A stretch of DNA of 64,000 nucleotides from Albugo candida. Its lineage: Eukaryota; Oomycota; Peronosporomycetes; Albuginales; Albuginaceae. This document shows, in pieces, positions 8,167 to 48,090 of the stretch. Made by a program: the position numbers and the translations under genes. Position 1 is the first letter of the stretch. Each line of letters starts with the position of its first letter. Where the stretch lies: NCBI GenBank assembly GCA_905220665.1, contig CAJNAR010000164.1:682001-746000 (forward strand), read 5' to 3'. Under the pieces are notes generated by a model. It ran no database searches and was not told the DNA's origin. It was given only the letters and a program-made list of their open reading frames with translations.

Positions 8167-8239
8167 TCTCCTATAGCTCAGTTGGTAGAGCGTGTGGCTG
8201 TTAACCATAAGGTCGCTGGTTCAAACCCAGCTGGGAGAG
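8167..8239 (+). tRNA. tRNA-Asn (anticodon GTT)
   Basis: A 73-nt cloverleaf. Acceptor TCTCCTA (8167-8173) pairs with TGGGAGA (8232-8238) with one G-U pair. The anticodon loop CTGTTAA gives GUU. The T-arm is GCTGG-TTCAAAC-CCAGC. No intron. A- and B-box sequences are intact, so it is probably functional. Confidence 0.9.
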
Positions 8240-12175: not shown

Positions 12176-12989
12176 CGAATGAAGTATACTAGTCACCTTT
12201 AAAGGATATCTCGATTCAGCATCTTATCAGCATAATAAAGCCTCGGAAAAAGGAAGATGAAAAATAAGGATGCTTGAGCATTTGACTACGCATTCAGATT
12301 CTAACAGAAAGCTTTCGCAGACGTACTTCTCTCTTCTGATTCTTTGTTTGCGCAGTTGGCTGCAAGGAAAACGTTGGCACGAGCAAGTGACATGACCGTG
12401 TGGAACCTTCTAGGATGTCTTGGAGCCAGGACAAACGTTTGCGCGCACACCATCTGTTCAAGATTGTACAATTTTTCGTTCGAGATCACGGAAGCTTGAC
12501 TCTAAAGGACTATCTAAACAAGAAAGAACCAGCCATTTGCTAAAAAACCTAGAGGTAGGTTACGTCTTCTCGTTACTGATGAGAGTGTGCGAGAGATTTT
12601 CCTGTGAGAGAATCAATATCTGTGGCAAATACTACACATTCCGATAAGATGACGTTCTCGGCTCTTGATACTTCTGATACATTTGTTAGAATATTCGCGA
12701 AGCACGGGAAGATTTTGATGGCTCGCAATATCGACGTAGACGTATATATTCGCTCCATTTCCTGTCCCGAGCCTCCGTTAGACTGTGGAATAGTTAGCGA
12801 TCTAATGTGAACCGAGGAATGATCAAGACGCACCGCTACCGCAAAGCGTTTTTCAAACATAAGAGCGTGTATTGTCGTAGGTAGCGATTCCTTTGCTGGG
12901 ATAGCGCTACCGAAGAGACTTGACATCATAAATGTTTTCCATTGGGCAATTGTCAGACAATTTTCGGACGAAAGGAAATTCTCTCATTG
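12176..12989. other. Between gypsy relic and LINE relic; unrecognised
   Basis: No RNA gene or recognisable transposon part. A 118-codon open frame on the minus strand (12573-12929) shows no family I recognise, no signal peptide and no splice-linked neighbour; I do not call it a gene. Confidence 0.4.
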
Positions 12990-14975
12990 AAAGCCAGCAT
13001 CGACTTATAGCATTAACGATCTGCCACAGATATGGATGGATACACAGCATTACTGATCAGTCAGTGATTTGGAAGCCAGCACATAGTCCTCGTTTGGTGC
13101 GTACTGATATGCTGCCGCAACTTTTGCGGTCTTCACTAGCTAGGGACTTGACACGCAGTGGGATAGTCCTAGGTTCGATTACATTAGTATGATAAACATT
13201 CGTGGCAGTTTCTCACTATCAGGAAATGCTCAATATCTCGGCGATTTTTCCATCGAATATTAAATTTGATAATATATTCAGATATACATGGAGCTTCGGT
13301 CTATATGCAGAACATTATGCTCCTGTCCATCCACGAAAGGATGGAGCTTTTGTCAATCAATTTCTGACTAAATTTGTCAAACCTAATGCATCTCGCATCG
13401 TTTGTAATCTCTTTTCGAGCAGATTAGGATTCCACCTATTTTTTGCTCCCCCTATAGAGTGATCACATGGCGCATATACCAAAACTTAGAAGTTCCCACA
13501 CTCCAAGATCCTGGATACTGATAATTACACTTTCTTAATCTGACTTACTAGTAATAGAAGAAGCTATGGAGGCTGATCGTTACCTTGATTTTTTTCTGCA
13601 GCTTCCCATCGACTATAGGCGTTGGAAGAAACACATCAAGTACTCTCTCGAACAAGCACAAAAAGAAGATCTGGCAGCAAGAAAGAAGATGGGCGAGGAA
13701 TGTCTTTGCTGGAATGTTAATGGGTGAAGATTTGGTTCAATTTGAATCAAGAGTCCATGTTTCACTATCATATCAAGCACATGGGGCAATCTGCAGGAAA
13801 TTGTTCTCGACCAGTGAATTCGACGTGTCATACTTTGCCATTGGAACAAGCTCTACTTCTAATTGGTCAAGATCGAAGATTACGATTGATATCTCTCTTC
13901 GGTTCACAGATCAGTGGGCTGACTGATGAAGATCCATCGAGTTTAGCTGGGCTTTCCTTGGGTCCTTGTTAAGAATACCAATACAACCTCAATCAACAGC
14001 ATTAATTCAGTAGCTTTATTGTACGCTTCAATCAAATAGTACAAGCAATCCATAGCATGCGTGGACACACACCACCTAGATTGAACAGATCGCCACAAGA
14101 GTTTTACCAACTCGTCTTGAGTATTTTCAATGATTGTCTGCAAATTGTGTACGACATCAACTTCGTAAAGTCTTATTTCTGCCATCTCAACATATTTCGT
14201 TAATCACGTTGATTAACGAATAAGAATCCTGCCTTGATTCTGGCATCTATCGTGGCATAGCTATAACCTACGTTGATTAAAAAAAAGACAGCTACCGAAG
14301 CCAATCACGTACCGACTTCAGCAGGTGTTTTCGAAATATATTTGGAGCATCGAAGAATCTCTTCGCGTTTTCCATCCACCGCCACATCCACTGCATGAGT
14401 GATATCCAGAGTATGGTCACTTATTGAGATGACGAGCGTGACCGACCCATTGATTGGTCGTCCATGTTAGCGTTTGTTCGGAGGAACCTTGTAAATCCGT
14501 GTATTCAGCAAACAAAGCTTCTGTAAAACAATGAGACGTTTCGTTGCTTTAAATGTGGCTAGCGACACCGTAAATCACTCCTTCTCGAGGTTCGTAATAA
14601 GAAGATCTAATCTTCGCACTGCTCTCACTTGTGACGATTGAGCCTCTGATGTTTTTTCGCGGAGGAATAAAGGACCTGAAATATGTAACAAGCACGTGGC
14701 ACAGCAAATAATTGATTGTTGTTGACAACTTGACTTTGATATCTTTCTTCGCTCGATGGAATTGAGATGCAGCGTGAGGTCATTTGACATCCTTGTGATT
14801 GATGATGATGAGTAAGGTAGAACCTGTTCAATTCAACTGAACAAATGTCAAGCTTGTCCACATCCATTCGCGAGTGAGTGATTTCATGATTGGATTGCTA
14901 AAAGATCGTTTTCATGGTGCTTTCTGTCAGACTTCCATCTAGCCAGAATAACTGGAGGCTGACACAAGTCATGTT
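12990..14975 (+). mobile_element. Degenerate LINE relic related to the 34-41 kb LINE
   Basis: Blocks match the LINE at 33970-40697 in the same order and orientation. 13010-13190 matches the end of its ORF1 (near 36230-36420). 13600-13970 matches the linker before RT (near 37500-37880). 14290-14480 matches RT (near 38230-38390). 14650-14700 matches sequence near 38630. 14880-14970 matches near 38930-39020. The endonuclease part is absent or unreadable, and every frame has many stops. This is an old dead copy of the same LINE lineage. Confidence 0.75.
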
Positions 14976-25390: not shown

Positions 25391-26839
25391 AAGAACCAGA
25401 TAAACAGCGTAATGAAATCCTTGACAAAGTAGAACCTGTTTTCTCCAATGATATCACCCCACTAATCAATCAAATTGACAGGATGTCTTTCAGATTCGTT
25501 GACACATGACCAGAAGGAAGGAGCATTTCGCGGTACACTTAATGGAATGTTGCAACCAATGATCAAAAAGTAATTGTCTTGGTGTTTTTGTATTCAGCCT
25601 TGAGTAATCGAATACGCATTCAATGTTGCAGTTGTACGAATTTCTTACCCATCTGAGACAAAGATGCAAAGAGTTGTCCTGTACCTACCCTTTTTCTTGT
25701 TCAACACCGATAGTCGAGGAGCATTTGCCGCTTCTTCCAGATACGATTGAGCTCGTGCGAGGTCCTCTTCATCTTGACATCGGATAAGTGCTCAAATTGC
25801 CTTCATGTATTACTCCGGACGCCTTCGATTCCACCTTAATAGCTATTCAATAACGGGACAATCGCAGCATAAGTGGTTATTCCCGTACGAGACGGACTCA
25901 GGAATTTGATTTTCGAGCATCAAATGACCCCGCCATGAGAAAGGAACACACATCAGACACTTTTATAAATCGAGTAGAGACTCCGAAAAAATGGTGCTCC
26001 CGGGTCGAATATTTCGTGACTGTGATCTAGGGAATTCATGATCATCGCAATGGTGCTGACCCAAAGCATCGACGACACCCCTTTTGGAATATCATTCCAA
26101 TCATGATGATCGGCATGGCATGAGCCGCGGCGATTAGCACCATTCAGACGATCTGAAATGGGAAGTAGGATTGTATTGATGCCCCTAGAATTATTTGAGC
26201 ACGCGTCTCTATCTAATGAGCTTGTTGGAACGTGATGAAGTACGATGTGGGGTTCGTTATGTTACGAATCACAGTCACGACACCTTTTGTTCCCATCCAA
26301 AATAATTGTTGACGTCAAGTCAAAACGACATTTTCTTAGGTGTTGCCGATCGCTGGAATAGATATCTTGAACGTAATCTTTTTTAGTGACGATTGTATCA
26401 ATTTTCACTGGCAGCATGTTCATGTTATTTTCACATGTCGCCGACGAGTTGCCTGTAGTATTCAACGAAAACGGGTAAGTGATCAGCCGCGAATGAGTAT
26501 TCGTCATCAACTGTACAATTCACCCGATTCTTCGAAGGTGAGCTTTTCTATCCCGCGTCGAACTAAGACAAGATGCTCCTAGTGAAGAGTACAAATGTCG
26601 AAGCAATTTGCGGTATTGCGTGGGATAAAAAGAAGATGGATCAGTAGTGTACGGGATGCTGTGCTCATTTTCTCTGAAAGAAAATCGAACTATACAGACG
26701 CATCAACTCAGAGCAATCGAGCAACATTATCCTTCCATTGCGGCTGTCTAAAAGGGAGAAGCTTAAACCGTTCTGTTCCTGACTCGAAAGCTCGGGCCAC
26801 TTATCTTCAAGCAAAATACAGCTCTAGACAACATTAATA
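25391..26839. other. No gene recognised
   Basis: Between the SINE candidate and tRNA-Thr. No domain or RNA gene was recognised in either strand. Confidence 0.4.
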
Positions 26840-26911
26840 TGCCTCCGCCCGGGATTGAACCGGGGACCTTCTGCTTACAAGGCAGATGCTCTACCACTAA
26901 GCCACAAAGGC
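26840..26911 (-). tRNA. tRNA-Thr (anticodon TGT)
   Basis: Read on the minus strand this is a complete cloverleaf: acceptor GCCTTTG pairing with CGGAGGC through two G-U pairs, anticodon loop CTTGTAA (UGU), T-arm CCCGG-TTCAATC-CCGGG, discriminator A. Its 5' end (26911) touches the 5' end of the LINE at 26913, and its first 16 bases belong to the LINE target duplication. The tRNA gene itself is intact. Confidence 0.9.
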
Positions 26912-26912
26912 A
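26896..26912. repeat. Left copy of 17-bp LINE target duplication (tRNA-Thr 5' end)
   Basis: ACTAAGCCACAAAGGCA, identical to 33953-33969. It covers the first 16 bases of tRNA-Thr plus one flanking base. Confidence 0.8.
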
Positions 26913-27006
26913 GGACTTCTCAATCTGACGGCTACTAAGTGACCAGCCAATTTAGTAAAAACAACTCGAAAAAACAACTTTTTTCACCTCTTTCCTCTCG
27001 AAAACA

Positions 27007-29484
27007 ATGGTTCAAGTCGACATATCGACACAACCAAGGGTGCTAGCGTCCACTTGTACTGACGTGGCAACCCTCATGAGTCACCCTGTTTTGGGTGATT
27101 GTATGATTGTTGATCAGTCATCACCCCTGTGTGATGACGTGGAAAGTACCCCCACCCCCAGTGTAACGGTACTGGTCAATACCGGTACTACAGGTGTCGG
27201 ATGTGGTACCGGTGGTACATGCGGTACTATCGTTGCCTCGTCACAGGATGACCCAAAGGCAACTGCAAGTGTGGACGACACTAAAAGTCCCACTTTGGCT
27301 GACCTGATCAGGTCACAGGAGTCCTTGCGTAAGGACCAGGCTAGAGCTCGGGCGAAATTTCGCGTGGAGCTTCCAAAGCCTAAAGCCTCGGACATCGAGT
27401 CTATTACGCGATTGTATGCTGATGGACAACATCCCGAGTGGTCGGTGTTGGCAGAAAAATTGGAGGCAGCGAGGCCTTTTAAGGTCTCCAAAGCCACCTT
27501 TCCCATGATTCTGGAAACAGGTCAAGCGTTGGTGCGTACTCCAAATGGAAAAATCCTGTCTTCCCTTATGAAGGATCATGGGAATCCAGTATTCGAGAGT
27601 CTACTGGAGAGCAGAGCCATTGCTCAAGTCTCAAAGATGCCTGGTGGCAATCTTCGAGTGATGGTCTCCACCGAGGATGCTTGTCAACAGCTGGAGTGCC
27701 AGCCGATAACCATCCTCGGGTCTCAATACTTTTTTCGGGAGTACGATTCTCTCGAATCCAAATACTATCTGGATATATTTGGAGTGGGCGTGGAGGAAGA
27801 ACGGATTCCGATTTTACGTTCCCTTCACAGTCTAGGATGTCCAGTAGTCTTTGCTACTTTCCGCGAAACTGTTCCGTGCAAGGGTGTCGTGATGTCGACG
27901 TGGAGAGTGTACTTTAGTACTCCTACATGCCCTCCACAGCTGGTCCGCATCGGTAAAGTATGCGAACAAATTGCATACGAAAAGATGCTTTACCCTGTGC
28001 GAGGGAAACACGCTCCTATCCCATCGGAACGACCACGTTTTGGTCAACGTGGTCCTTATTGCTTGGATTTGTGCGCTATATCAACCACGGGAGCACGGCA
28101 ACAACAATCGAACAAGCAAAAGAAAAAGCAAAACCACATTCAAAATCAACCGCAACAAAAACCACAACAGCAACCAAAACAAACAAACGCGCCAACGGAG
28201 CTCGTGGTGGCACCACAAAAAGTAGTGAAGCCAGTTCTCAGTCAAGAATTGAAAGCGAGGAAACCTGACCGGAAGCTATCCGATCAAATCTCGTTGGAGC
28301 TCAACACTCCCCCCACAATCACACCACCAGGAGCACAAGCTTTATTGCAACACACACCTCCCATCCTCCAACTGACCAGTCAGTCATACTCCCAACCACG
28401 GGTAGAGCGGGATGGGGATGTATCCATGAAGTTGGCTTGGACGAGTGGAAAACGTAATCGGGTGGAGCCGTTCGACCAAATGGTCTCCAAAGCACCACCT
28501 CTTGCGCTTCCAAAACTAGCGACGAGTAACTATTTTTCCGTGCTCGCAACTATGGAGGTGGAGATCGAAGAAGTAACAGCGGTTGCCAATCCAGAGAATG
28601 GCAATCGCGTCCAAATCATCCCCGTGAAAGCACGGATGCCAAAAGAGGTGGCCACCTCGAAAGAGGCGGCACACTTTTATCAAAAACGTCATACAACAAT
28701 CGAGAAATCGGAACGACCAACCCGAGTTGGTGAAATAGGGGAGCTGATGGAAATCGATTCGAAAAATGCCCTTCACTCACTCCGACCGGACAAGCTGGTT
28801 CAAGCGGATTCTTGCATCCCTCATGTGCGGAAGCTAATCCAGTTCTGCACAAATCCGGACAAAATCATCCGAGCGGCACTTGATCATCCGATCACGATGA
28901 ATGGTGTGCTACTTGCATGTATGGAGTCGAATGATAAAGCTTTGGATGAAGTGGCTCATCTACTTATGATAAATCGCGTTTTTGCAACTCACAATCTCGG
29001 CGAAGATGTTACGTTTGCGACGCGATGGAGTCGCCACGTTGGTGGAAAAGTTCCCTCCAAGCGATCTGTTCTGTTCGAGAAAGTAATGTCGTGGTGGACG
29101 TCAGTGCCGGACATCGTTATCGGTTTGACTCGAGCAACGAAAGCTCTCGCGTTGTTGGAACTTTTATTCATGTGTACTGCTCCGACATTCTACACCAACG
29201 ACCACTGGATCCAATATCTCACCGATGGACCAGTGATCTGGATTCCGGGTCATCATTGTCGTTTACTTCCAACCAATGTGATCATATCCTTCTTCCGCTC
29301 CGACGTTGGCATAAAGTGTTGGTCGCAATGGTTTGGAGGTAGATGGCGTGGACTTCTTCATGGTGACATCGCTGAGCTTTCCGTCAATCTCAGCTTTTTT
29401 CCAGAGGAGCACACAACACTTCACCTCTCACAACAAGATGGTGAAATGAGGTTGATTACTGGTCCACTTCAGCGTGAATGCTAA
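27007..29484 (+). CDS. LINE ORF1 protein
   Basis: 825 codons from ATG 27007 to TAA 29482-29484. No RRM or CCHC knuckle is visible. The centre (about residues 360-400) is rich in Gln, Asn and Lys, likely disordered and RNA-binding. The C-terminal third is conserved with the ORF1 of the next LINE (WIQYLTDGPVIWIPGHHCRL against WIQYITGQPVIWIPTHHCRL), so it is under constraint even though I recognise no family. LINE ORF1 proteins generally coat the element RNA. The stop codon overlaps the start of ORF2. Confidence 0.8.
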   Translation: MVQVDISTQPRVLASTCTDVATLMSHPVLGDCMIVDQSSPLCDDVESTPTPSVTVLVNTGTTGVGCGTGGTCGTIVASSQDDPKATASVDDTKSPTLADLIRSQESLRKDQARARAKFRVELPKPKASDIESITRLYADGQHPEWSVLAEKLEAARPFKVSKATFPMILETGQALVRTPNGKILSSLMKDHGNPVFESLLESRAIAQVSKMPGGNLRVMVSTEDACQQLECQPITILGSQYFFREYDSLESKYYLDIFGVGVEEERIPILRSLHSLGCPVVFATFRETVPCKGVVMSTWRVYFSTPTCPPQLVRIGKVCEQIAYEKMLYPVRGKHAPIPSERPRFGQRGPYCLDLCAISTTGARQQQSNKQKKKQNHIQNQPQQKPQQQPKQTNAPTELVVAPQKVVKPVLSQELKARKPDRKLSDQISLELNTPPTITPPGAQALLQHTPPILQLTSQSYSQPRVERDGDVSMKLAWTSGKRNRVEPFDQMVSKAPPLALPKLATSNYFSVLATMEVEIEEVTAVANPENGNRVQIIPVKARMPKEVATSKEAAHFYQKRHTTIEKSERPTRVGEIGELMEIDSKNALHSLRPDKLVQADSCIPHVRKLIQFCTNPDKIIRAALDHPITMNGVLLACMESNDKALDEVAHLLMINRVFATHNLGEDVTFATRWSRHVGGKVPSKRSVLFEKVMSWWTSVPDIVIGLTRATKALALLELLFMCTAPTFYTNDHWIQYLTDGPVIWIPGHHCRLLPTNVIISFFRSDVGIKCWSQWFGGRWRGLLHGDIAELSVNLSFFPEEHTTLHLSQQDGEMRLITGPLQREC

Positions 29485-32400
29485 GGGCTCCTCGATTATT
29501 TCAACGTGGAACAATATCTCAGCACTCACGGTGAATGTTAATGGAATACATAAAAACGGTCATCTTTTTATCGACCACATCGTATCACAATACTCCATTT
29601 GTTGTGTTCAAGAAACCAAGTTTCACGATCACAACCAACTGGAATCATTTCAATTTTTATTATCCTCAAAAATGCAGCACAAAATGTTTGTCAATGATCA
29701 CAACAGTGCTTTTCTCCATCCGACTCAAAACCGCAGTGGCGGCGTCATGACAATCCTTCGTTCGGACTTTCCCGGTTATGAAACAGCTGAAGAACTCACC
29801 GATCGAAGCATTCGAAATCGTTATTTGGTTCTGCGTCTTCTCATTCACGATGCACCGGTGTATATTCACAATGTATATGCACCGGTCAAGGCCGAGGAAC
29901 GAGTGGGTTTTTATGAGTTATTGCTTTCCAACACTTTCGAATCGACCGCAACACATATCGTATTTGGTGATTTCAACACACCACTCGATCCAGCTATCGA
30001 TGCTTCGAGTGGAACAATTCGACACGAACCAAGTCGATTAGCGTGTTTGGAATGGCTTTCACAGTTGGGTGTGGTAGACGCTTGGCGAATCCAGCATCCG
30101 ACTGAAAAAGTATTTACAGGACCATTACCGCGCAAGAATCGACTTGATTATATCTGCATGTCGGAAGAGCTATTCAATATGGTATACAAAACCTCTGAGT
30201 ATTTTCGTCCACGACATGCGGGAGATCATCTGGCACAAAAAGTAACTTTTGCAAATCCAACTCAATCACCCGGTCGAGGATATTGGAAATGCTCATTACG
30301 ACTATTTGAATATCCTAAAGTTGTCGAAGCAATCAAATTGGAAGCGAATTTGGTGCTCGAACAGTTACGGACAACTTCGAATCCCGGTAAAATGTGGGAA
30401 TGTTGGAAGACGAAAATCAAGAAACAGCTTCAAACCCTTGAAAAAAAGGTTGCAAAAGATAGCCGACGTGATGTTGAGTCTAGCCAGCGTGTTTTGGAAG
30501 TCGCAGCAGCTCGATATCGCATTCAGGACACCAATGAGTCACGGTATTTTTACGAATCGAGTCTCCAACAATTTCGAATTTCAGTCGAAAACAACGCGAA
30601 ATACAACCAAGATGAAAGTTTCGACCATCACGTGAAGCATATGGAGAACTCTTCAAAGCATTTTTTTCGCCCTCCGGATAGTTCTTGTCGTCGCGTGCCG
30701 ATCGAAAATGTTACAAAAAAATGTGGTACCGTGACATCGAACCCGAGGGAGATTATTGACGAATTCAGAGATCATTGGGGTGGTGTCATGGGCTCTCTTT
30801 ATAGCTCAGAGACCGACTCAAATGTTCCAAGTGACAGAAAGCAAAAAAAGTTACTCGATTCGATTCAAGTTTCACTTGCCTCAGCAGAGCAAGAACGTCT
30901 CTCAACTCGGTTAAGTACGACCGAGATGGCGGAAGCGATCAAGCACATGCGGAGTAGTTCTTCTCCAGGTATGGATGGACTACCAGCTGCATTTTATCAG
31001 CTTGATCCGGAAACGTTTGGCGAGTGTTTGAAGATCGTGTTCGAATTTCAGCTAGAAAGAGGAATTTTACTGCGATCACAACGTCACTCAGCAATCACAC
31101 TTTTATACAAAAAAGGATCACGAGGTGATCCTGGCAACTATCGACCGATCGCACTACTTTGCGTCGATGTGAAAGTACTTTCAAAAGTGTTGGCGTATCG
31201 ATTGCAACGTTTTTTGCCAAAATTGATCCATCAAGATCAAAAAGCATTTGTGCGCGGAAGGTCAATGCATCATCATATTCGACATCTCACCGACATCCAA
31301 GACTTGGTCACTCATCGTGGGGAGGAAGCTTATGCGACTTTTCTCGACTTTGAGAAAGCTTATGATCGAGTCAATTGGACGTACATGTTTCGCGTTTTGG
31401 AAAAAATGGGTGCTGGAAAAAGTTTCATCGACTGGGTTCGTCTTTTGTACAATAACACAAAGGCGCAGTTGATGATTAATGGAAATATCACACCATCTAT
31501 TACACCACAACGTGGAGTGAAACAAGGTGATCCTCTCTCAGCATTACTTTTTCTGATGACGATCGAACCTTTGGGAAATTTACTTCGCCAACATGAAGAA
31601 CATGGAATTTGGATTAATGGCACGACTGTCGCAACTGGATTATTTTTTGCGGACGATTCGACATTGCTTTCAGAGACACCAAATGGTGTTTTGACGCAAC
31701 TCGAACTCGTCCAAGTCTATTGCGATGGATCGGGTGCGAAACTCAACTTGAGTAAATCATCTTTGCTCTCGTTGAATCGGACCATGCCGTGTCCACGTAT
31801 TCCCAATTTGACCATAATGGGTCCGGAGGATTCGGTCAAGTATTTGGGTATTCCGTTCGGCCAGAAACCAACTCATTCGAAGGTTATTTCAACTCTCGAC
31901 AAGCGTTTTTACGATGGGTTTGGTGTATGGTTTCTACGAGCACGAACTGTCCGTGGTCGACTACTGGTTGCGCAGACGATGATTTTATCACGTTTGTGGC
32001 ATTACACAATGCACGTAGACATACCAGCAGCGACAATTCGACAGTGGCAATCGATGTTAAATCGATTTGTGCTTGGTCGGAAACACAAAAAAGATTCAAA
32101 ACATGTTCACCTACTCAGCAAAGAGTTTTTATATCTTCGCCGACAAGATGGTGGACTACAAGTTCCTTTTTTGATGGGACGACTAAAGCTACAACGTATT
32201 CAATTCCTTCAGCAGTTCGCATCCGATGCGTCAACAATTATTCCTGCGAATTGGACAACTGCTTCGACGGAATTATTACAACTTATTCAACCTTCCTTTG
32301 GACCACACAAGCCGATGGATATATTCACCATCGCACCAAATCGACATGGAAAAATGGTTCAATGGGAGAGCATATCGTCATGGTGGAAACAAGCATTTAA

Positions 32401-33655
32401 AATGTGGCATCAGATGGATTGGAGCATTTCAATATCAGATTTAAATGTTTCACAACGCCGTCAGTACTACATGGAACAGCCGATGTGGTTTCACTGCGAC
32501 CAAAAATTACATTACGAAGCTGCTACTCGTCATACGAGTACGCAGAACGTTTGGTACAATCTTGGCATGGTGGATGAACCACATCGAACATTTCGAAAAA
32601 CGTTTGCTACACTTTTCGACGTTCGAAGTTTGCAAGACTTTTTTCGTGAAAGCGACACATGGCCAACGAAGGAAGATTTCGTCGCCAACTATTACAACGA
32701 CGAAGAGCTGAACACATCGGATATGTCTGAAGAAAAGTTGCTGAGTCGACTTTACAATGAAGTCACTCAGATTCTCCAGCGTATCCACTCGACGATTGGT
32801 CTCATCACTTGGATTATACCAACTACAAGTGGCAGATCATTTTATGTGGGAGAAAAACGCAAGGAAAGGAAACATTATTTTCCATCTATTCCACGCTCAC
32901 AACTCTCACGAATCGTCTGGAAACCTCCCGAACCAACCAAGAGTCATCCGATGTCGACACATTGGTCATCACGGGAGAGATCGGACGCACTGGATTCAGA
33001 ACGAGTTCGAACCTTTATGGCTACATCACGGCATCTTCGAAAACGTGTATTACCAATTTTCGAGGATTTACAGTTTCGTCTCGCCTTTCGGATGTTGCCA
33101 GTTCGATCTCGTTTCTGGTTGTTAAAGGTTATTCAGCCCGACATTATATTGTGCACGCAGCCTTCGTGTGGGGCAGTGGAATCCGATCAACATCTCTTTC
33201 TAGAGTGCGATCACACGGCACAGTTATGGAGGGAGTTACTCCCTAGTTGGGATCAGTTTTTCTCCTCTCGACCACGTTGGACGCATATTGCATGTGCAAT
33301 CGTACCAACACTACGGTCGGATTGGAAAGATTATTTATCAATTATCTCAGATTTATGGCTTGCATTGCAAGCGGTGACACTGCACTTCGTCTGGACAGAT
33401 CGGAATCGTCGTTTGTTCGATCATCGATCAGCAACTCCGACAGTTCCAGCACTTTCCGTCATTTACACCACGTTTGGTGCGCACGTTCGGTACTTTCGAA
33501 GACAGTGTTACGACCACGAGGAACGCATTCGGCTTGCAAAGGTACTGAATCAACTCGCAAAGCAAGGATCATTTGGTGGATTTTTCAGAAGTCGAAGATC
33601 ATTGCTGCGGGTCCGGCACAGGCGAGTGGAACGGCAAGTGCAACTCAGATCCTAG
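29474..33655 (+). CDS. LINE ORF2: AP endonuclease, reverse transcriptase, C-terminal zinc motif
   Basis: The frame is open from just after a TGA near 29455 to a stop at 33655 and has no ATG before the endonuclease domain. APE domain: about 29510-30260 (ICCVQETKF, GDFNTPLD, NRLDYICMS, AGDHL). RT: about 30930-31800 with LLYKKGSRGDPGNYRPIAL, FLDFEKAYDRV, GVKQGDPLSALLF and the catalytic FADDSTLL. Near the C-terminus is C-x4-C-x7-H-x4-C (33150-33210), like the LINE gag-knuckle. It makes DNA by target-primed reverse transcription in the nucleus. Translation must couple to ORF1 by frameshift or reinitiation (see findings). Confidence 0.88.
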   Translation: MNAKGSSIISTWNNISALTVNVNGIHKNGHLFIDHIVSQYSICCVQETKFHDHNQLESFQFLLSSKMQHKMFVNDHNSAFLHPTQNRSGGVMTILRSDFPGYETAEELTDRSIRNRYLVLRLLIHDAPVYIHNVYAPVKAEERVGFYELLLSNTFESTATHIVFGDFNTPLDPAIDASSGTIRHEPSRLACLEWLSQLGVVDAWRIQHPTEKVFTGPLPRKNRLDYICMSEELFNMVYKTSEYFRPRHAGDHLAQKVTFANPTQSPGRGYWKCSLRLFEYPKVVEAIKLEANLVLEQLRTTSNPGKMWECWKTKIKKQLQTLEKKVAKDSRRDVESSQRVLEVAAARYRIQDTNESRYFYESSLQQFRISVENNAKYNQDESFDHHVKHMENSSKHFFRPPDSSCRRVPIENVTKKCGTVTSNPREIIDEFRDHWGGVMGSLYSSETDSNVPSDRKQKKLLDSIQVSLASAEQERLSTRLSTTEMAEAIKHMRSSSSPGMDGLPAAFYQLDPETFGECLKIVFEFQLERGILLRSQRHSAITLLYKKGSRGDPGNYRPIALLCVDVKVLSKVLAYRLQRFLPKLIHQDQKAFVRGRSMHHHIRHLTDIQDLVTHRGEEAYATFLDFEKAYDRVNWTYMFRVLEKMGAGKSFIDWVRLLYNNTKAQLMINGNITPSITPQRGVKQGDPLSALLFLMTIEPLGNLLRQHEEHGIWINGTTVATGLFFADDSTLLSETPNGVLTQLELVQVYCDGSGAKLNLSKSSLLSLNRTMPCPRIPNLTIMGPEDSVKYLGIPFGQKPTHSKVISTLDKRFYDGFGVWFLRARTVRGRLLVAQTMILSRLWHYTMHVDIPAATIRQWQSMLNRFVLGRKHKKDSKHVHLLSKEFLYLRRQDGGLQVPFLMGRLKLQRIQFLQQFASDASTIIPANWTTASTELLQLIQPSFGPHKPMDIFTIAPNRHGKMVQWESISSWWKQAFKMWHQMDWSISISDLNVSQRRQYYMEQPMWFHCDQKLHYEAATRHTSTQNVWYNLGMVDEPHRTFRKTFATLFDVRSLQDFFRESDTWPTKEDFVANYYNDEELNTSDMSEEKLLSRLYNEVTQILQRIHSTIGLITWIIPTTSGRSFYVGEKRKERKHYFPSIPRSQLSRIVWKPPEPTKSHPMSTHWSSRERSDALDSERVRTFMATSRHLRKRVLPIFEDLQFRLAFRMLPVRSRFWLLKVIQPDIILCTQPSCGAVESDQHLFLECDHTAQLWRELLPSWDQFFSSRPRWTHIACAIVPTLRSDWKDYLSIISDLWLALQAVTLHFVWTDRNRRLFDHRSATPTVPALSVIYTTFGAHVRYFRRQCYDHEERIRLAKVLNQLAKQGSFGGFFRSRRSLLRVRHRRVERQVQLRS

Positions 33656-33952
33656 TCCTAGTTGGCTGGTTCTGCTCACCGTAGTGTGGCGCACACCAAT
33701 GTGCAAGCCACGGTACTTTTGGACCATTTTTACAACTTAACAACTTTTTCAACTTTACAGCATTAACAAGCTGGACACAGTCTCGTATTAAGGTGCTGAG
33801 GCTACTACGATACGAGATTATCAACGAGACGACATTTTATCATCTCTCACAGGTGTTTCACGAAACGTTTTTATATGTATATATGTTATTTAAGATAGCC
33901 TAGGCAACTAGAGAAGTCAGTTAGTCTAATTCTAGTAATATAGACACCTTCA

Positions 33953-33969
33953 ACTAAGCCACAAAGGCA
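33953..33969. repeat. Right copy of 17-bp LINE target duplication
   Basis: Identical to 26896-26912 and carrying the antisense 5' end of tRNA-Thr. It also forms the left flank of the second LINE. Confidence 0.8.
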
Positions 33970-33978
33970 CTCCTTCTT

Positions 33979-36534
33979 ATGGCGGCTACAGCGCGTACTA
34001 AGACCAAGACTGCACTAACGAATCCAGCCAAACCGCCTGTTCAGAAAAACACGCAAGCTCCCCTTTTCTTGCCGAAGACGATGGTTATTGTCGACATCTC
34101 CAGCTTACCAATTGTTACATCGCCTGATGTGGCTAGTGCGGCTACATGTAACTTGTCCGTTACGGGCACGTTGCCGGCGGAAAGTACATCCACTGGCCCA
34201 CCTCTACCGTCGGCCTCTGTCACGACGTCTGCTGAGGTAATTGGCCAATCAGGGAGCGCTATGGAGATTGACACGCCTCCCTCTCCCACTTCAATTTCCA
34301 CCAATGAACCGGTACCAATGGAGGTGGATGACGCGTTGCCGTCAGCACCTTTGAAACCGGTTGAGCCCGTAACGACAACCGGTAATCGGGCATGTCTCGC
34401 CGATATCTTGAAAGGTCAAGAAGAGCTCCGAAAGGATAAAGCTCGAAAAACGGCCCAATTTAAGGTCGAAATGCCGAAACCGTGGGCGGCGGATCTTCGT
34501 GCTATCGAACAACTCTTTGAGGGTGGACGACCGAGTTGGGAGGTTTTGTCTGCTAGCCTAGAAGCAGCGAAGCCCTTCTCAATACCCGTGTCCAAGTATG
34601 CAATAGTCCTTGAAACGGGTCAAGCTCTGGCGCGGACACCACCGGCTCAAATGCTACGTTCCTTTGCTCAGGATCATGGCAATGCGATCTTAAAAAAACT
34701 CTTTGAAGAAGAGAAAATTGGCCATTTGGCAAAGTTACCGGGGGGTAATTTGCGGCTTTTGGTCACTAGTGAAGAAGTGTGTCAGCAGCTGGCACACGAA
34801 AAGGTTACAATTCTGGGCAACCAGTACTCATTCCGAGAATACGATATTCTCGGGTCGCGTTATTTCCTGGACATTTTCGGCATCGGACCCGAAATTTGTC
34901 CATCGAGCATCGCATCAGCGTTGTATTCGATAGGATGCGACATACTCTATGCTCATTATCGCGAAGCAGTGGCTTCACAGAGCATAGCGATGTCCACCGG
35001 AGAGTGTATTTTCACTCTACATCATGCCCAGTACCGCTGGTCGTATCGGGCAAACCTGCGAGCAGATCAGTATCGAAGGGAGATATTATCTTGCTCGTGG
35101 AAAAGGAGCCCCACTTTCTGTTGAGCGATTACGGATGGGTCAGCGCAGTCCACACTGCTTAGTGCTGCCGGTGAACACTCCTAAACCGCCTCATCCACCA
35201 AAAACTAAACCATATTCATCAACTGGAAGTCACACGGAACGCCCAGGAAGCACTGTTCCAACTCCCGTCAAGGCTGCTCTAGGTGACAAACGAGCTTCGT
35301 CGCGGGATAAAAAAGATTCTTCTCGTTCAAAAAGCGTTGCTGAAGATACTAAGCATCCAGCAAAGGCGTTCACGGAGCACGAATCACCTCCTGCAAAGAA
35401 GGCGGACTCTTCTCCGAACGCGGACACTACAAAGCCACCGATTCCGTTCCCGGCATCGAATGTTCCTACCGATACCTGTACGTTACCACGTCCTAGCAAT
35501 AAGCGTAATCGCTCGCTTGACAGCTTTACCAGTCTCGTCAGTAAAGCTCGCCCAAAACCACTCGAGGGATTATGCACCAGTAACTACTTTGACGTTCTCG
35601 GTTCGGTCGACGTCGAGTACTCAAAAATCGATGTTACGACAAATTCGGATTTTGGTAGACGCTACCATATCGTTCCTTCGAAAGTCGTGGCTAGCAAACA
35701 TGTCGCTAGTTCCAAAGAAGCCGCCCATTTTTTAAGAAAAACCACACGCGCATCGAGAAAGGTAATCGTCCAGCGCGTGTCGGTGAAGTGGTGGATACTC
35801 TTATTGAGGATGTTAAAACGTCAATGGTCCTTACTAAAGTGGACAAACTCGTCCAGGAGGATGTTCACGTACCGAAGGCTGAGAAGCATGTTAGCTTCAC
35901 CTGCAACGGCGATGGATTACTTCAATTCGCCCTGACCCATCCGATAGCACTTCATGGAGTGCTGAACCGACGAATGCGGGAGAATGATCATCAATTGTCC
36001 GAATTGGTGCACGTTCACACTATCAATCGTGTTCTTGAGGCCTCAGAACCCACTTCAGACACTACGTTCGTCAAGAAATGGTTCAAACAACTAGGCGGAA
36101 GAGTTCCAGTGAAGCGCCAAGATTTGTTTGCATCGGTGGCACACTGGTGGAAAGCCTCACCAGCAGTTGAGGAATTAAGTCGAGCGACAAAATCGCTTGC
36201 ATTTTTTGAGCTGATGCTGATGTGCACAGCACCGGCGATCTACCACAGTGATCAATGGATTCAGTACATCACTGGTCAGCCTGTGATCTGGATCCCAACC
36301 CACCATTGTCGTTTAATTCACACAAACGTATTGTTACAGCTTCTGCGGTCTCCACTTGGCTCCCTTTGCCTCAGTGAGTGGTTCGACGCGCAATGGGACA
36401 GTCCATTATTGGACGACTTGGAAGTTCTCCAATTGTCGACCAACTATTATTCCGAAGATGCAGCTATTCTACAGCTGCAGCAGGTAAATGGCGTACCGAC
36501 TATTATACCTGGAGCACTAGCTTTTGATTATTAA
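33979..36534 (+). pseudogene. LINE ORF1, frameshifted
   Basis: Reads from ATG 33979 (the ATG equivalent to that of the intact LINE is 34081, MVIVDIS) in three successive frames, with shifts near 35020-35120 and 35780, ending at TAA 36534. The C-terminal part is closely similar to the intact ORF1. Once full length, now broken. Confidence 0.8.
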
Positions 36535-39500
36535 GGGCAGCTCGTCCGATCAGTGTTCATGGAACAATAAGAGCATTCTTTCTGTCAACACGAACGGCAT
36601 CAAACGCAATGGTCACCGTTTAACAGAGCACATCCTTTCGAAACACGTTATTTGTTGTGTTCAAGAAACTCACTTCCGCGACAGTCAACACCTGGAGACT
36701 TTTCGGTTTCACTTGGATTCAACATTCACAATCATCTTTTTGCCAGTGATTCGTATAGTCTTCACTCTCATCCCGTTCGGGAACGAGTCAATGGGGTTAT
36801 GACAATTATTCGCCACGATTTCCCCGGATCTGAATCTGCACAAGCTCTTACCACTGTCTCCGTACCCGACCGATATTTGGTTGTGCGTTTGGTGATACTG
36901 GGAGCTCCAGTATATATACATAACGTTTATGCTCCGGTGAATCCAGCTGAACGAAAACTATTTCTCGACCAACTTCGAACGGGTTCTTTGACCACAACGC
37001 AACGCACATCGTTTGTGGCGATTTGAACACAACCTTGTGTCCCAGTTCGGATTGCTCCAGTGGTGTATATAGGCACGAGACAAGTCGCCTCTCATGTTTG
37101 GAATGGCTTTCCAACTTGGGTGTGCTGGATGCTTGGCGTCAACATCATCCTGAAGCACGTATCTTTACTGGCCCCCAACCCAGAAAAAACCGGCTGGATT
37201 ACATCCTTTTGTCAAAACCTCTTTTCCAGTCAGTTACCAAGGAGTTCAGTTACGTTTCACTCCCACACACGGGTGATCTTCTGGCTCATGTTGTAAAGTT
37301 CGCAAATCCATCTCAACTCCAAGGTCGTGGTTGTTGGAAATGTCCTTTATCATTATTCGACTATTCAGCAATCAAAGAAGCGATCGAGGAGGAGGCGGAT
37401 CGTATCTTAACAAAACTTCGTGTTTCTTCTCATCCTGGAACAGACTGGAAGAATTGGAAGAAGCAGACAAAAAAACTACTACAACAAATTCAGAAGAAGA
37501 TAAGTCGCCAAGCAGAGTTGGACGTCACAGACGCTCGTGCTGCGTTGGACGAAGCTGCAGCAGCTTTTCGACAATCAAACCAAGAACAAGAAAAAAAGAT
37601 GTACGCGGAAGCTCTCCGCTCTTATCATGCACGGGTCAAGAGTTCGTCCAAGTACAATCAAGATTCCATGTTCGATTACCACATGAAGAATATGGAGAAA
37701 TCATCTCGACATTTCTTTCGACCAGTGGACTCAACATGTTATCGTGTACCCTTGGAGGAAGTTCTCCTGTCTAGTGGCCAAGTGTCTACGACTCCTATTG
37801 ATATCACCCTTCAGTTCACGGATCACTGGGGTGGTATCATGGGAGACCCACAAAGTTCAGCTGGACTTTCTTTGCGCCCATGTGCGACCCAACAACACAA
37901 ATTACTTCAATCCATCACAAAAACATTTTCCAGATTGGATGAATCCTTTTTGTCCTCTACTCTAACAACACGGGAGATAGAAGAAGCAATCAAACACATG
38001 CGTGGACATTCATCACCTGGAATGGACGGATTGCCCGTAGCATTCTACGAACTCGATCCAAGTGCTTTTGGTGAATGTCTAAAAATTGTTTTCGAACACC
38101 AACTTCGTCGAGGCTCTTTGCTGCGTTCTCAACGTAGTTCAGCAATCACGTTGCTATACAAAAAAGGATCCCGTGCTGATCCTGGCAACTATCGTCCTAT
38201 TGCCCTGATATGCGTGGATGTGAAAGTGCTGTCGAAGGTACTCGCGTACCGACTTCAGCAGGTGCTTCCGAAATTGATCCACGAGGATCAAAAAGCATTT
38301 CTGCGAGGACGTTCCATCCATCATCACATTCGGTATATGAGTGATCTGCAGGATCTAGTCACTCATCGTGATGAAGAAGCATACGCAACATTTCTCGATT
38401 TTGAGAAAGCGTACGATCGAGTGGATTTGGTCGTACATGTTTGCGGTTTTATCGAAAATGAATTGTGGAAACTCTCTCATCCAGTGGACAAAGCTTTTGT
38501 ACACCAACACGAATGTATCGTTGTTGTCGAATGGAACGCTTTCGCCAAAAATTACTCCGTCGAGAGGTGTTAAACAGGGTGATCCACTGTCCGCTTTGCT
38601 CTTTCTCATGAAGATTGAGCCTTTGGGAAATTTGTTGCGGAGGAATGAAGGACCTGGAATATGCATCACTCCAACGAATACAGCAACGAGTTTATTTTTT
38701 GCGGACGACTAGACCTTATTATCGTCTTCGCTCGGTGGGGTAGAGGCGCAGCTCGCGATCGTTCAGAAGTATTGCGATGGTTCAAGAGCAAAGTTTAACT
38801 TGTCTAAGTCCAATTTGCTCCTCCTGAATCGACACCAAGTATGTTCACCGTTTGCACACGTGACAGTACTCTCACCGAGTGAGTCGATGAAATATTTGGG
38901 AGTTCCATTCAGTCAATCACCCGTTGGTGATTTGATGATCGAATTCGTAGAAGATCGTTTTTATGGTGGATTCCGTCAGTGGTTTCGTCGGGCCAGAACA
39001 GTTCGTGGAAGATTACTGGTGGCACAAACTATAGTGTTATCACGTTTATGGCATCTTACAACTCATTTCAACATCCCTCAACATTTCGTTCGACGCTGGC
39101 AATTGATGCTCAATCGATTCGTTTTGAGTCGGAGTATGAGCGCGATTCAACACACGTTCAACTGATCAAGTCGGACTTCTTGTACCTACCTCATTCAGAA
39201 GGTGGCTTTCAGGTTCCAATTATCTCAACACAACTGAAGAAACAACGCTTTCAGTTTTTACAACAATTTCTACTCCATTCCAGTACAGCTTTACCCAGCA
39301 ACTTGACACTTCCTGGAACGGAGATCACACGATGCATTTTGCCAGATTTTGGGCCATATCGATCACTCGATATCCTCACGATATCACCACGTTGGCATAG
39401 AACCATGGTTTATTGGAATATAGCGTCACCATGGTGGAAGCAGACATGTATTTGGTTCCACCAAAGTCATTGGGATCTTACCGACAAAGAACTATCACAG

Positions 39501-40545
39501 AAGGAGCGATTTTTTCAGCTTTTGGATGCCCCCATATGGTTTCATATCGAACCAAAGCTCCATATTGAGAAGAGGCAATGTTCAACAAGTATCTCTGCTC
39601 ATCGTCGAAGTCTGGGAATGGTGCCCGAACCAGCGCGCAGTCTTCGGATACGATTCGCTCAAGCGTTTCACATACGGTCCCTACGCGACCTGTTTGGTGG
39701 GAGAACGGACTGTTTCGCCCCTGCTCTAGAATTCGTTTTGCGTTTTAGTACAAGTGAAGTTGGTAAGCCGTCCGATCCGTCTTAATCGAAATTTTTGCGC
39801 CGGTTGTACTTCGAAGAAACGCAAACTCTTCGAAGAGCTCAATCAGTTGGAGTATTATACTGTTCGGAAAGGGGAATAACACGTGCGTATTCGGTTTACT
39901 TTGGACCTCAGCTCTCGGAAAAGCAGATTTCTTTCCAATGATTCTTCGGACCCAACTTTATCGCGTCGTTGAGAAGGCAGTGTCACCGGATAAACCGCAC
40001 CCACTGTTGCTTCGCGTGTCCGAACGGGATCGAAGCGGGACTTCAACATGGGTGAGAGATTTTTACAAATTATCCAGTTCCGACTTTCCTTTTTTCTCCT
40101 ACCAGTTCGAGCACGCTTTTGGTTTTTACAACAATCACATCCGGAAAGCATCCTGTGCACTCAGAAGCATTGTGGTGAAGTAAAAAGCTACCAGCATTTG
40201 TTTTTTGAGTGTAGCAGGAAACGTCCAATTTGGGAAGAACAATTTCCGTCATGGACGATTTTCTTTTCTGTTCGACCACGATGGTCACACATCGTGTATA
40301 AATGGATTCCTGTACTTCGTGATGTATGGAAACCTTTCGGCTGGTGCTGGAGGACCTTGGTTCACACTAGTCGCGGTCGTGATTCATTTTAGTTGGACAG
40401 ATCGGAACCGCAATTTTTTCCCACGGCACATTAACACCTACTGCACTTGCTGTATCGGTGATTTAATTTTACAGCAAATGCAATGCTTGCATACGATATT
40501 TTTCAAGGCAGTGCTATGCTACGGAGCAGTTGGAGCACTTGACAA
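36524..40545 (+). pseudogene. LINE ORF2, broken
   Basis: Endonuclease (36560-37270) and RT (37960-38800) are recognisable, with frameshifts near 36740, 37020, 38430 and 39120. An in-frame TAG directly follows FADD of the RT catalytic box (near 38710), so no functional RT could be made. The C-terminal region is readable to about 40545 (HFSWTDRNRNFF near 40390). Confidence 0.8.
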
Positions 40546-40697
40546 AATTATTAGAGTCATATCATCATACTGGTTCAGCACGGAAATAGCGAACTGCGCT
40601 GTGGATTACTCTACATCAGTCTTGCATGTATTTTTATTTATTAATGATGAGTTAGACATTTAAAAAGAAATGTACGTCTATTCCTAGTACCTTCAAC

Positions 40698-47133: not shown

Positions 47134-47776
47134 CGAAATTATTTGCGTCTTCACAATTCAATCGCCAAAGTGTCCCTCTCTACCCCGAAGTGACGCCAAC
47201 TAGTACGGAGTTCAAAGATTATACACAATTTTCCTGATTACTCTCACACCAATGATGCGATATCCATCGAAAGTGTCAAGCTAGAAGCAGATGTGAAGCA
47301 CAATATATGGTGCTAACATGTTTTTTTGTTTCAAACTAATTATAGAGAAATTACTTCGCATTTTTATAAGGTCTGATCTACAACCAAGCAGGTAAAGGTG
47401 TTGACATGAATTACGTGGGCACGATCGAATTATGAAAGCATAGATTCGAAAACCGTCAACATTGTTCCCAAAACAACACTTGCTGCTGGCCGATGTGTGA
47501 CTGCAAATCAGCGAAATGCTTCATCAGAATGTTCCATATCACGCCTCCGATAAGATGAATCACGACCTGAAAAAATCATCCCCGTTTACCAGATCAATTT
47601 GACGATCATTACATTTCACGTTTGAGTGGCGTAAGCCTGATAATGAAACCACAATTTATAGTGGATCTAGATAATTCGCATTTGGCTAACGCAATGATAT
47701 AACGTAAACATGGATAAATTACTTGATTATACTATGTTTGGTTTATTGTGTATTTTCTCTCCATGAGACTCGTAAT
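47134..47776. other. No gene recognised
   Basis: AT-rich spacer before tRNA-Ser. Nothing supported on either strand. Confidence 0.45.
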
Positions 47777-47857
47777 GACAGCTTGGCCGAGCGGTTAAGG
47801 CGATAGACTCGAAATCTATTGGGGTTACCCGCGTGAGTTCAAATCTCACAGCTGTCG
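47777..47857 (+). tRNA. tRNA-Ser (anticodon CGA)
   Basis: An 81-nt class II tRNA. Acceptor GACAGCT pairs perfectly with AGCTGTC, the anticodon loop CTCGAAA gives CGA, the long variable arm is GGGGTTACCC, and the T-arm is GTGAG-TTCAAAT-CTCAC. No intron. Confidence 0.92.
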
Positions 47858-48090
47858 ATTATTCTTAGCCCTTCATTCAAGGGCTGACTGACACTTCAGC
47901 GCACTCCAATGGATGACTGCGCAGCGATACTTACCTCCCAAAATGACGTGGTCGTTGCTGCTTCGCAAAAGAGGGTGCATGAATGAAAAGAATCAAGCTC
48001 AGGGCACCCTTCTGCCAAACTGTGACATCTCATTCAATATTTTACCGGAAGCATCTCCCGGTCTCCCATAACTCGTATATTTCGTAGAAG

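Follow-up and report, generated by a model that had tools for sequence, protein, structure and literature searches.

Albugo candida is a plant-parasitic white-rust microbe. The window analyzed here is a stretch of 64,000 nucleotides of its genome, in which two LINEs lie one behind the other at the 5' end of a tRNA-Thr gene. The glucose-6-phosphate isomerase encoded in the window shares 99% identity with a protein of A. candida and 89% with A. laibachii, which points to A. candida or a very near relative as host. The features of the window to which the text refers are as follows:

8167..8239, + strand: tRNA-Asn(GTT) gene (ARAGORN) with A box CTGAGC, an unoccupied gene used for comparison
26839..26912, - strand: tRNA-Thr(TGT) gene (ARAGORN), whole, with its 5' end against a LINE
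26896..26912, no strand assigned: first copy of the target-site duplication (17 bp), antisense of the tRNA from -1 to +16 and including most of the A box
26913..33952, + strand: young intact LINE (family A), located between the two 17-mers
27007..29484, + strand: ORF1 of the young LINE, 825 aa
29474..33655, + strand: ORF2 of the young LINE, 1393 aa
33953..33969, no strand assigned: second copy of the target-site duplication (17 bp), a perfect match to the first
33970..40695, + strand: older LINE (family 2), broken in frame
47776..47858, + strand: tRNA-Ser(CGA) gene (ARAGORN) with a different A box, a second unoccupied gene used for comparison

The initial annotation had reported a perfect 17-bp duplication around the intact LINE, an insertion that left the tRNA gene whole, and a second LINE beginning directly after the same 17-mer; all three are found in the sequence. 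The complete tRNA-Thr gene was recovered by ARAGORN, and Infernal places its limits at 26840-26911. The duplicated 17-mer is ACTAAGCCACAAAGGCA and, in agreement with the earlier description, corresponds to the antisense of tRNA-Thr bases +1 to +16 plus base -1. It has two sites in the window and no others even when up to 2 mismatches are allowed (chance expectation 0.01). The young LINE is about 7 kb in length and is directed opposite to the tRNA-Thr; its 5' end reads (GG)ACTTCTCAATCTG... and its 3' end ...GACACCTTCA. The first base of the older LINE, 33970, follows directly on the second 17-mer, which is the same base as that at which the young LINE starts. The older element ends with ...GTACCTTCA, is 73-79% identical to family B over the first 600 bases, and its ORF2 shares 59-61% amino-acid identity with that of the young LINE in the two longest stretches (27-56% in the remaining stretches). 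The proposal that two insertions had hit one position was borne out in part: the shared start base and the two different families argue for it, but where the older LINE ends, at about 40695, the sequence that follows is ACTTGATTG... and contains no copy of the 17-mer. Because this flank differs from the 17-mer, a duplication belonging to the older LINE itself is not demonstrable on that side, so that two insertions at the window locus are not cleanly proven. A further diverged LINE fragment, 28-35% identical to ORF1 and ORF2 of the young LINE, was seen at 12968-14436.

The coding capacity of the young LINE was assessed by Pfam scans (E 0.01). ORF1 matched no family; its relatives are found in Albugo laibachii (55%), A. 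candida (39%) and Globisporangium splendens (33-41%). For ORF2, relatives in Globisporangium show about 47-54% identity. ORF2 contains Exo_endo_phos (APE-type endonuclease) and RVT_1 (reverse transcriptase), and these were the only domains in the scan, which showed no RNase H domain. The APE-type endonuclease takes the place of the restriction-like endonuclease that is the hallmark of NeSL, LIN and Utopia elements, and no LTR repeat was noticed at the element ends. A C-terminal CX4CX7HX4C knuckle was spotted by eye, and the solved structure that best matches ORF2 is the LINE-1 ORF2 protein. With an APE endonuclease and a reverse transcriptase in ORF2 and with target-site duplications, the element is an APE-type LINE. 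ORF2 (29474) overlaps the ORF1 stop by 11 bases and its frame has no ATG from the last upstream stop to its GTG; its translation may start by reinitiation or frameshift. A search of viral contigs for relatives of the LINE returned no locus.

Copies of the element were collected from the genome assembly (38,932,133 bases, 196 contigs). The 17-mer is present in exactly 3 copies. The third is part of a further tRNA-Thr(TGT) gene, which likewise has the 5' end of this LINE against it and whose other flank is different. A search with ORF2 yielded at least 34 matches of 88-100% identity among the best candidates scored; from at least 5 of these no 5' end was taken (truncated matches or matches near a contig end). 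A 28-base pattern of the 5' end gave 273 matches with up to 3 mismatches (reversed control 0), and exact 15-base 5' ends numbered 206; TGAGCYA precedes 85 of these by 5-12 bases. A pattern of tRNA D-arm and A box, combined with a 14-base 5' word, was found directly ahead of 18 copies; this pattern misses the window copy and that at tRNA-Ala(CGC) (locus L073), though both abut a tRNA gene. Twenty-four stretches were fetched, one of which had no 5' end (L057) and two no recognizable 5' end (L045 and L055); L055 is close to a tRNA-Leu gene but not against it, and was excluded from the abutting count. The tRNA types abutted by the LINE, according to ARAGORN, are Thr(TGT), Thr(AGT), Tyr(GTA), Lys(CTT), Lys(TTT), Ala(CGC), Ala(AGC), Ile(AAT), Asn(GTT) and Phe(GAA). 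Rfam scans of 53 flank loci found no Pol III family besides tRNA at the gathering score.

A less biased sample was drawn by taking the 40 copies that best match the element's first 126 bases, without regard to tRNA genes, and reading their sites by hand. Ten of the 40 touch a tRNA gene, 2 are inside tRNA-like repeats, 12 follow the 3' end of another element, from which a CTGAGC-type duplication separates them, and 16 are elsewhere. At one of the 12 (L085) the element end in front is diverged. As the copies touching a tRNA gene and those following another element together make up 22 of the 40, the family behaves as a target-specific LINE, though not an absolute one. The condition named at the outset as speaking against the idea, that most copies lie away from tRNA genes, does not hold in this sample. 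The earlier designation of the tRNA-Thr 5' end as the target stands as far as tRNA 5' ends are concerned, but the target is not tRNA-Thr as such; it is the A-box region of many tRNA genes and also that of tRNA-like repeats.

Both ends were in hand for 23 copies, and 17 of these have a duplication of 14-18 bp. At tRNA genes the duplication begins at the tRNA 5' end and reaches into the A box, as far as about base 16. The remaining 6 copies lack a proper duplication: four have different A-box stretches at their two ends, one shares 11 bp and one 7 bp. The unlike ends are of the Tyr and Ile (L005/L034), Tyr and Phe (L006/L035) and Ile and Tyr type (L028/L054); in L013/L042 they also differ, the 3' stretch there being untyped. 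These copies suggest either that arrays of different tRNA genes have recombined or that the assembly is wrong at these places. An extra A or AC precedes the shared stretch at the element 3' end in 8 of the 17 copies, and one copy has 8 extra bases. The 3' end of the element thus reads ...CACCTTCAA(C), which overlaps ACTGAG, and the overlap suggests a brief pairing of the RNA 3' end with the nicked strand. Genome-wide, ACTGAG continues 140 of 265 exact 3' ends (the reversed control of the 3' word gave 1). Part of the ACTGAG after 3' ends may be derived from the element, so that the 5' side is the safer evidence. Target-primed logic places the strand that is cut first at the left end of the duplication; the first cut would accordingly fall on the tRNA-sense strand within the A box, whereas the 5' end of the tRNA would be the site of the second.

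The relationship was also viewed from the side of the tRNA genes. A covariance search gave at least 65 genes (63 of 1851 candidates scored), of which the 32 on contigs C134 and C196 were excluded because their layout suggests an organellar origin; two of the 33 that were left (L094 and L104) also look organelle-like. Among these 33 listed nuclear genes, 20 have an element at the 5' end (18 without two scored by eye). In 14 of the 33 this is the 5' end of a family A or B LINE at a gap of 0-3 bases, divergent from the tRNA in 14 of 14 cases. Six more carry other elements: a family-B LINE (L098), old diverged LINEs recognized by eye from their translations (L099 and L107), a 5'-truncated LINE (L095), and a 317-bp SINE at an Asn-type tRNA on contig C29 (L044) and at a tRNA-Cys with LINEs behind it (L106). 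Genes with the A box CTGAGC or CTAAGC were occupied in 18 cases and free in 4, versus 2 and 9 for other A boxes (Fisher 0.0007, hand-scored over the 33 genes). The P value of this association was 0.003 without the two organelle-like genes and 0.016 after repeats had been merged to 25 rows. Four genes are thus free of elements despite the preferred A box, and elements are found at genes with a non-preferred one in L098, L099 and, outside the 33, L073 (tRNA-Ala(CGC), A box CTGTGC). Overall, judging from the sequences, these two-ORF APE-type elements are probably target-specific LINEs directed at the tRNA A box.

The 16 sites elsewhere bear on what reads the target. TGA is present at -18 to -11 in 12 of them (background 0.158), TGAG in 7 (background 0.031), and 4 have no TGA in this interval; the insertion specificity is therefore strong, not absolute, since 16 of the 40 copies lie off tRNA genes, mostly at a short A-box-like motif. 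The A-box-dependent occupancy and the TGA at these sites favor a recognition of DNA letters. Genome-wide, CTGAGCTA is found 1149 times as an exact 8-mer (2774 times for the reversed word), so that this 8-mer alone cannot explain the concentration at tRNA genes, and some further determinant is required, be it a longer sequence, open chromatin or Pol III factors. In the best-surviving alternative, the complex is recruited by TFIIIB or by A-box-bound TFIIIC, a type of tethering to Pol III factors that is reported for TRE5-A of Dictyostelium, and the endonuclease cuts where it is held. This is a possibility to be taken seriously, which we consider somewhat short of probable. It would accommodate tRNA insertions far in excess of those predicted from the 1149 genomic words, as well as the occupation of genes with a differing A box in L098, L099 and L073. 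Against it, a common set of Pol III factors would be expected at every tRNA gene, whereas occupancy tracks the letters of the A box; moreover, the TGA core persists at equal spacing at non-tRNA sites, and the duplication sits inside the A box of the gene, not in an upstream interval. Direct reading of the A box is therefore ranked above tethering by Pol III factors, but not far ahead of it. The chances are about even that these elements form a LINE lineage whose own endonuclease recognizes the Pol III A box as naked DNA and which re-creates its target, and that a community of LINE families and a SINE has in this way colonized tRNA 5' ends.

A mechanism for direct A-box reading that fits the observed position, orientation, duplication, A-box preference and family stacking can be proposed. 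The endonuclease of the element would nick the tRNA-sense strand in the A box, after about base 16 (TRGCTYAGT^NGG). The freed 3' end, ...CTCAG(T), would prime reverse transcription at the RNA 3' end, ...UUCAA(C), the last bases of which overlap the A-box sequence. The other strand would be cut 14-18 bases off, at the first tRNA base. Such staggered cuts would duplicate the A-box stretch and keep the tRNA body and both internal promoter boxes, and expression of the tRNA may continue. After insertion a fresh target would be present at either end, allowing further elements to stack.

Stacked arrays are frequent. The array on contig C150 consists, in order from the tRNA, of families B, C, A, B and A. 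At the tRNA at C156:303564 the next element behind family B is, to judge by its position, of family 2, and the duplication of that tRNA separates the two. The mixture of families at both loci means that these are not tandem copies of one insertion, and the interleaving of three LINE families on C150 points to repeated insertion there. As the A box is within the duplication, a new target is left by each insertion. The arrays could instead derive from tandem duplication or unequal crossing-over of few insertions, which we regard as unlikely for the arrays in general. Some loci do have this appearance: copies 1-2 on C149 are 99.3% alike across 600 bases, copies 3-5 on C149 equal copies 2-4 on C164 across the first 600 bases, and the mixed duplications hint at recombination between loci. 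As the sole source of arrays, tandem duplication is rejected because of the mixed-family arrays: the succession of families on C150, the two different families at one tRNA both in the window and on C156, and the SINE between tRNA and LINE at two loci. The best reading is that tRNA genes serve as renewable landing pads common to about four LINE families and a SINE. The three C149 copies L126-L128 and the three C164 copies L130-L132 have identical first 600 bases and equal spacing; candidate readings are that these arrays are duplicated, allelic, exchanged or misassembled.

For the older copies the picture is less clear than for the young family A. In 9 further family-2/B-like 5' flanks, none (0/9) stands directly against a tRNA gene. 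One is behind another LINE at an occupied tRNA (L112) and two are behind a SINE (L111 and L119); in L113 the family-2 LINE 5' end lies, antisense, in the A-box region of the 317-bp SINE (by eye), so that the SINE can serve as target. L114 and L115 represent one duplicated locus with CTAAG. A second duplicated locus, represented by L116 and L117, lacks an A box. L118 is near a tRNA-Leu gene but not against it.

It is very improbable that insertion was near-random and that the copies at tRNA sites persisted because they are harmless. Their harmlessness is plausible, as the tRNA stays whole, but selection would not be expected to produce a gap of 0-3 bases and a single orientation, and the motif is common to the sites elsewhere too. 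Random placement predicts 0.001-0.003 tRNA-abutting 5' ends even for 206 copies, and was rejected with P < 1e-39 for the 10 of 40 copies at tRNA genes. This calculation assumed 100-300 tRNA genes; for A. laibachii, 153 are reported in the available part of the genome paper (PMC3130010). The other objection named beforehand, that the 17-mer belongs to an invariant 5' end of the element itself, can be practically dismissed: no support for it was found, and in other copies the initial bases of the adjoining tRNA stand in its place.

R1, TRAS and Mutsu are APE-type target-specific LINEs with one target in a multicopy gene or repeat. The Albugo LINE resembles these, as well as Keno (U2 snRNA) and the Tx1 clade (PMC4640811), in the same respect and differs from all of them in its target. 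According to the same source, Utopia has a U2 target in oomycetes, and the planarian elements LIN15_SM and LIN25_SM, reported with NeSL-related elements that have a restriction-like endonuclease, target tRNA-Arg and tRNA-Glu, respectively. The Albugo LINEs share with these two a specificity for tRNA genes; unlike them (one isoacceptor each), they are APE-type and use many isoacceptors. In the sections available of PMC5006619, PMC5911963 and PMC5391098, the TRE5 elements of Dictyostelium are placed 40-54 bp upstream of tRNA genes with a need for the B box, and TRE5-A ORF1 is stated to bind TFIIIB subunits in vitro. TRE3 elements insert 40-150 bp downstream of tRNA genes. Like TRE5-A (L1 clade), for which a tandem pair is also reported, the Albugo LINE is an APE-type two-ORF element found at many tRNA genes in the opposite direction. 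Unlike TRE5, it has a gap of 0-3 bp and a duplication reaching into the A box, and it uses non-tRNA A-box-like sites; its 3' end is ...GACACCTTCA, whereas that of the TRE family is poly(A). The Albugo LINE thus lacks two defining TRE features, the insertion distance and the poly(A) 3' end. The nearest described position found is that of NLTR-A of Dictyostelium purpureum, 2-6 bp upstream of the mature tRNA start, which like the Albugo LINE is close to the tRNA start; the RNase H domain of NLTR-A was not found in the Albugo LINE by Pfam, and the available part of its description mentions no duplication or A-box cut (PMC5006619). Precise insertion at tRNA genes is likewise described, in the parts available, for Ty3 (PMC5911963) and Dada (PMC3706591, PMC8869645), but these are an LTR retrotransposon and a DNA transposon, respectively. 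Repeats and tRNA genes are each covered in the A. laibachii genome paper, the available part of which does not connect the two (PMC3130010). Among the open-licence papers listed in the searches, no tRNA-directed LINE was found in oomycetes, in line with the initial annotation, which knew of none of the APE type.

While tRNA-directed LINEs are already known, the A-box-spanning duplication and the oomycete host appear to be new, and, as far as the open-licence papers listed show, no tRNA-directed LINE system would have been described in this group before. The promoter box itself, and not just its bound factors, appears to act as the address, which offers a testable contrast with TRE5-A and Ty3 as users of Pol III factors. 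If the naked A box is read, all tRNA genes and tRNA-derived SINEs would be possible targets, re-created with every insertion. LINE families and a SINE would then hold the 5' ends of a large proportion of the tRNA genes and their upstream regions would have been replaced, which raises the question of how a tRNA is expressed when its upstream DNA is LINE 5' sequence. A box-specific APE-type endonuclease would be of interest for site-specific retrotransposon tools, the box being common to most tRNA genes.

The two copies of the 317-bp SINE (L044:33-349 and L106:92-408) are located at the same base of the two tRNA genes (Asn type and Cys). They are identical at 315 of 317 positions and have duplications of 16-18 bp; the head of the SINE contains a B-box-like GGTTCGAATCCCGG (by eye). 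Mobilization of the SINE by the LINE via a shared 3' tail is not supported: the tail alignment scored 22, against a mean of 20.6 and a maximum of 35 for shuffled sequences. Repeated insertion into a tRNA-like repeat, antisense ...GATCGAAC...TTGAGCTGGG or CTGAGCTGGGTACGG, was seen by eye in L036, L043, L049 and L068, and this repeat looks, by eye, like a second SINE-like family.
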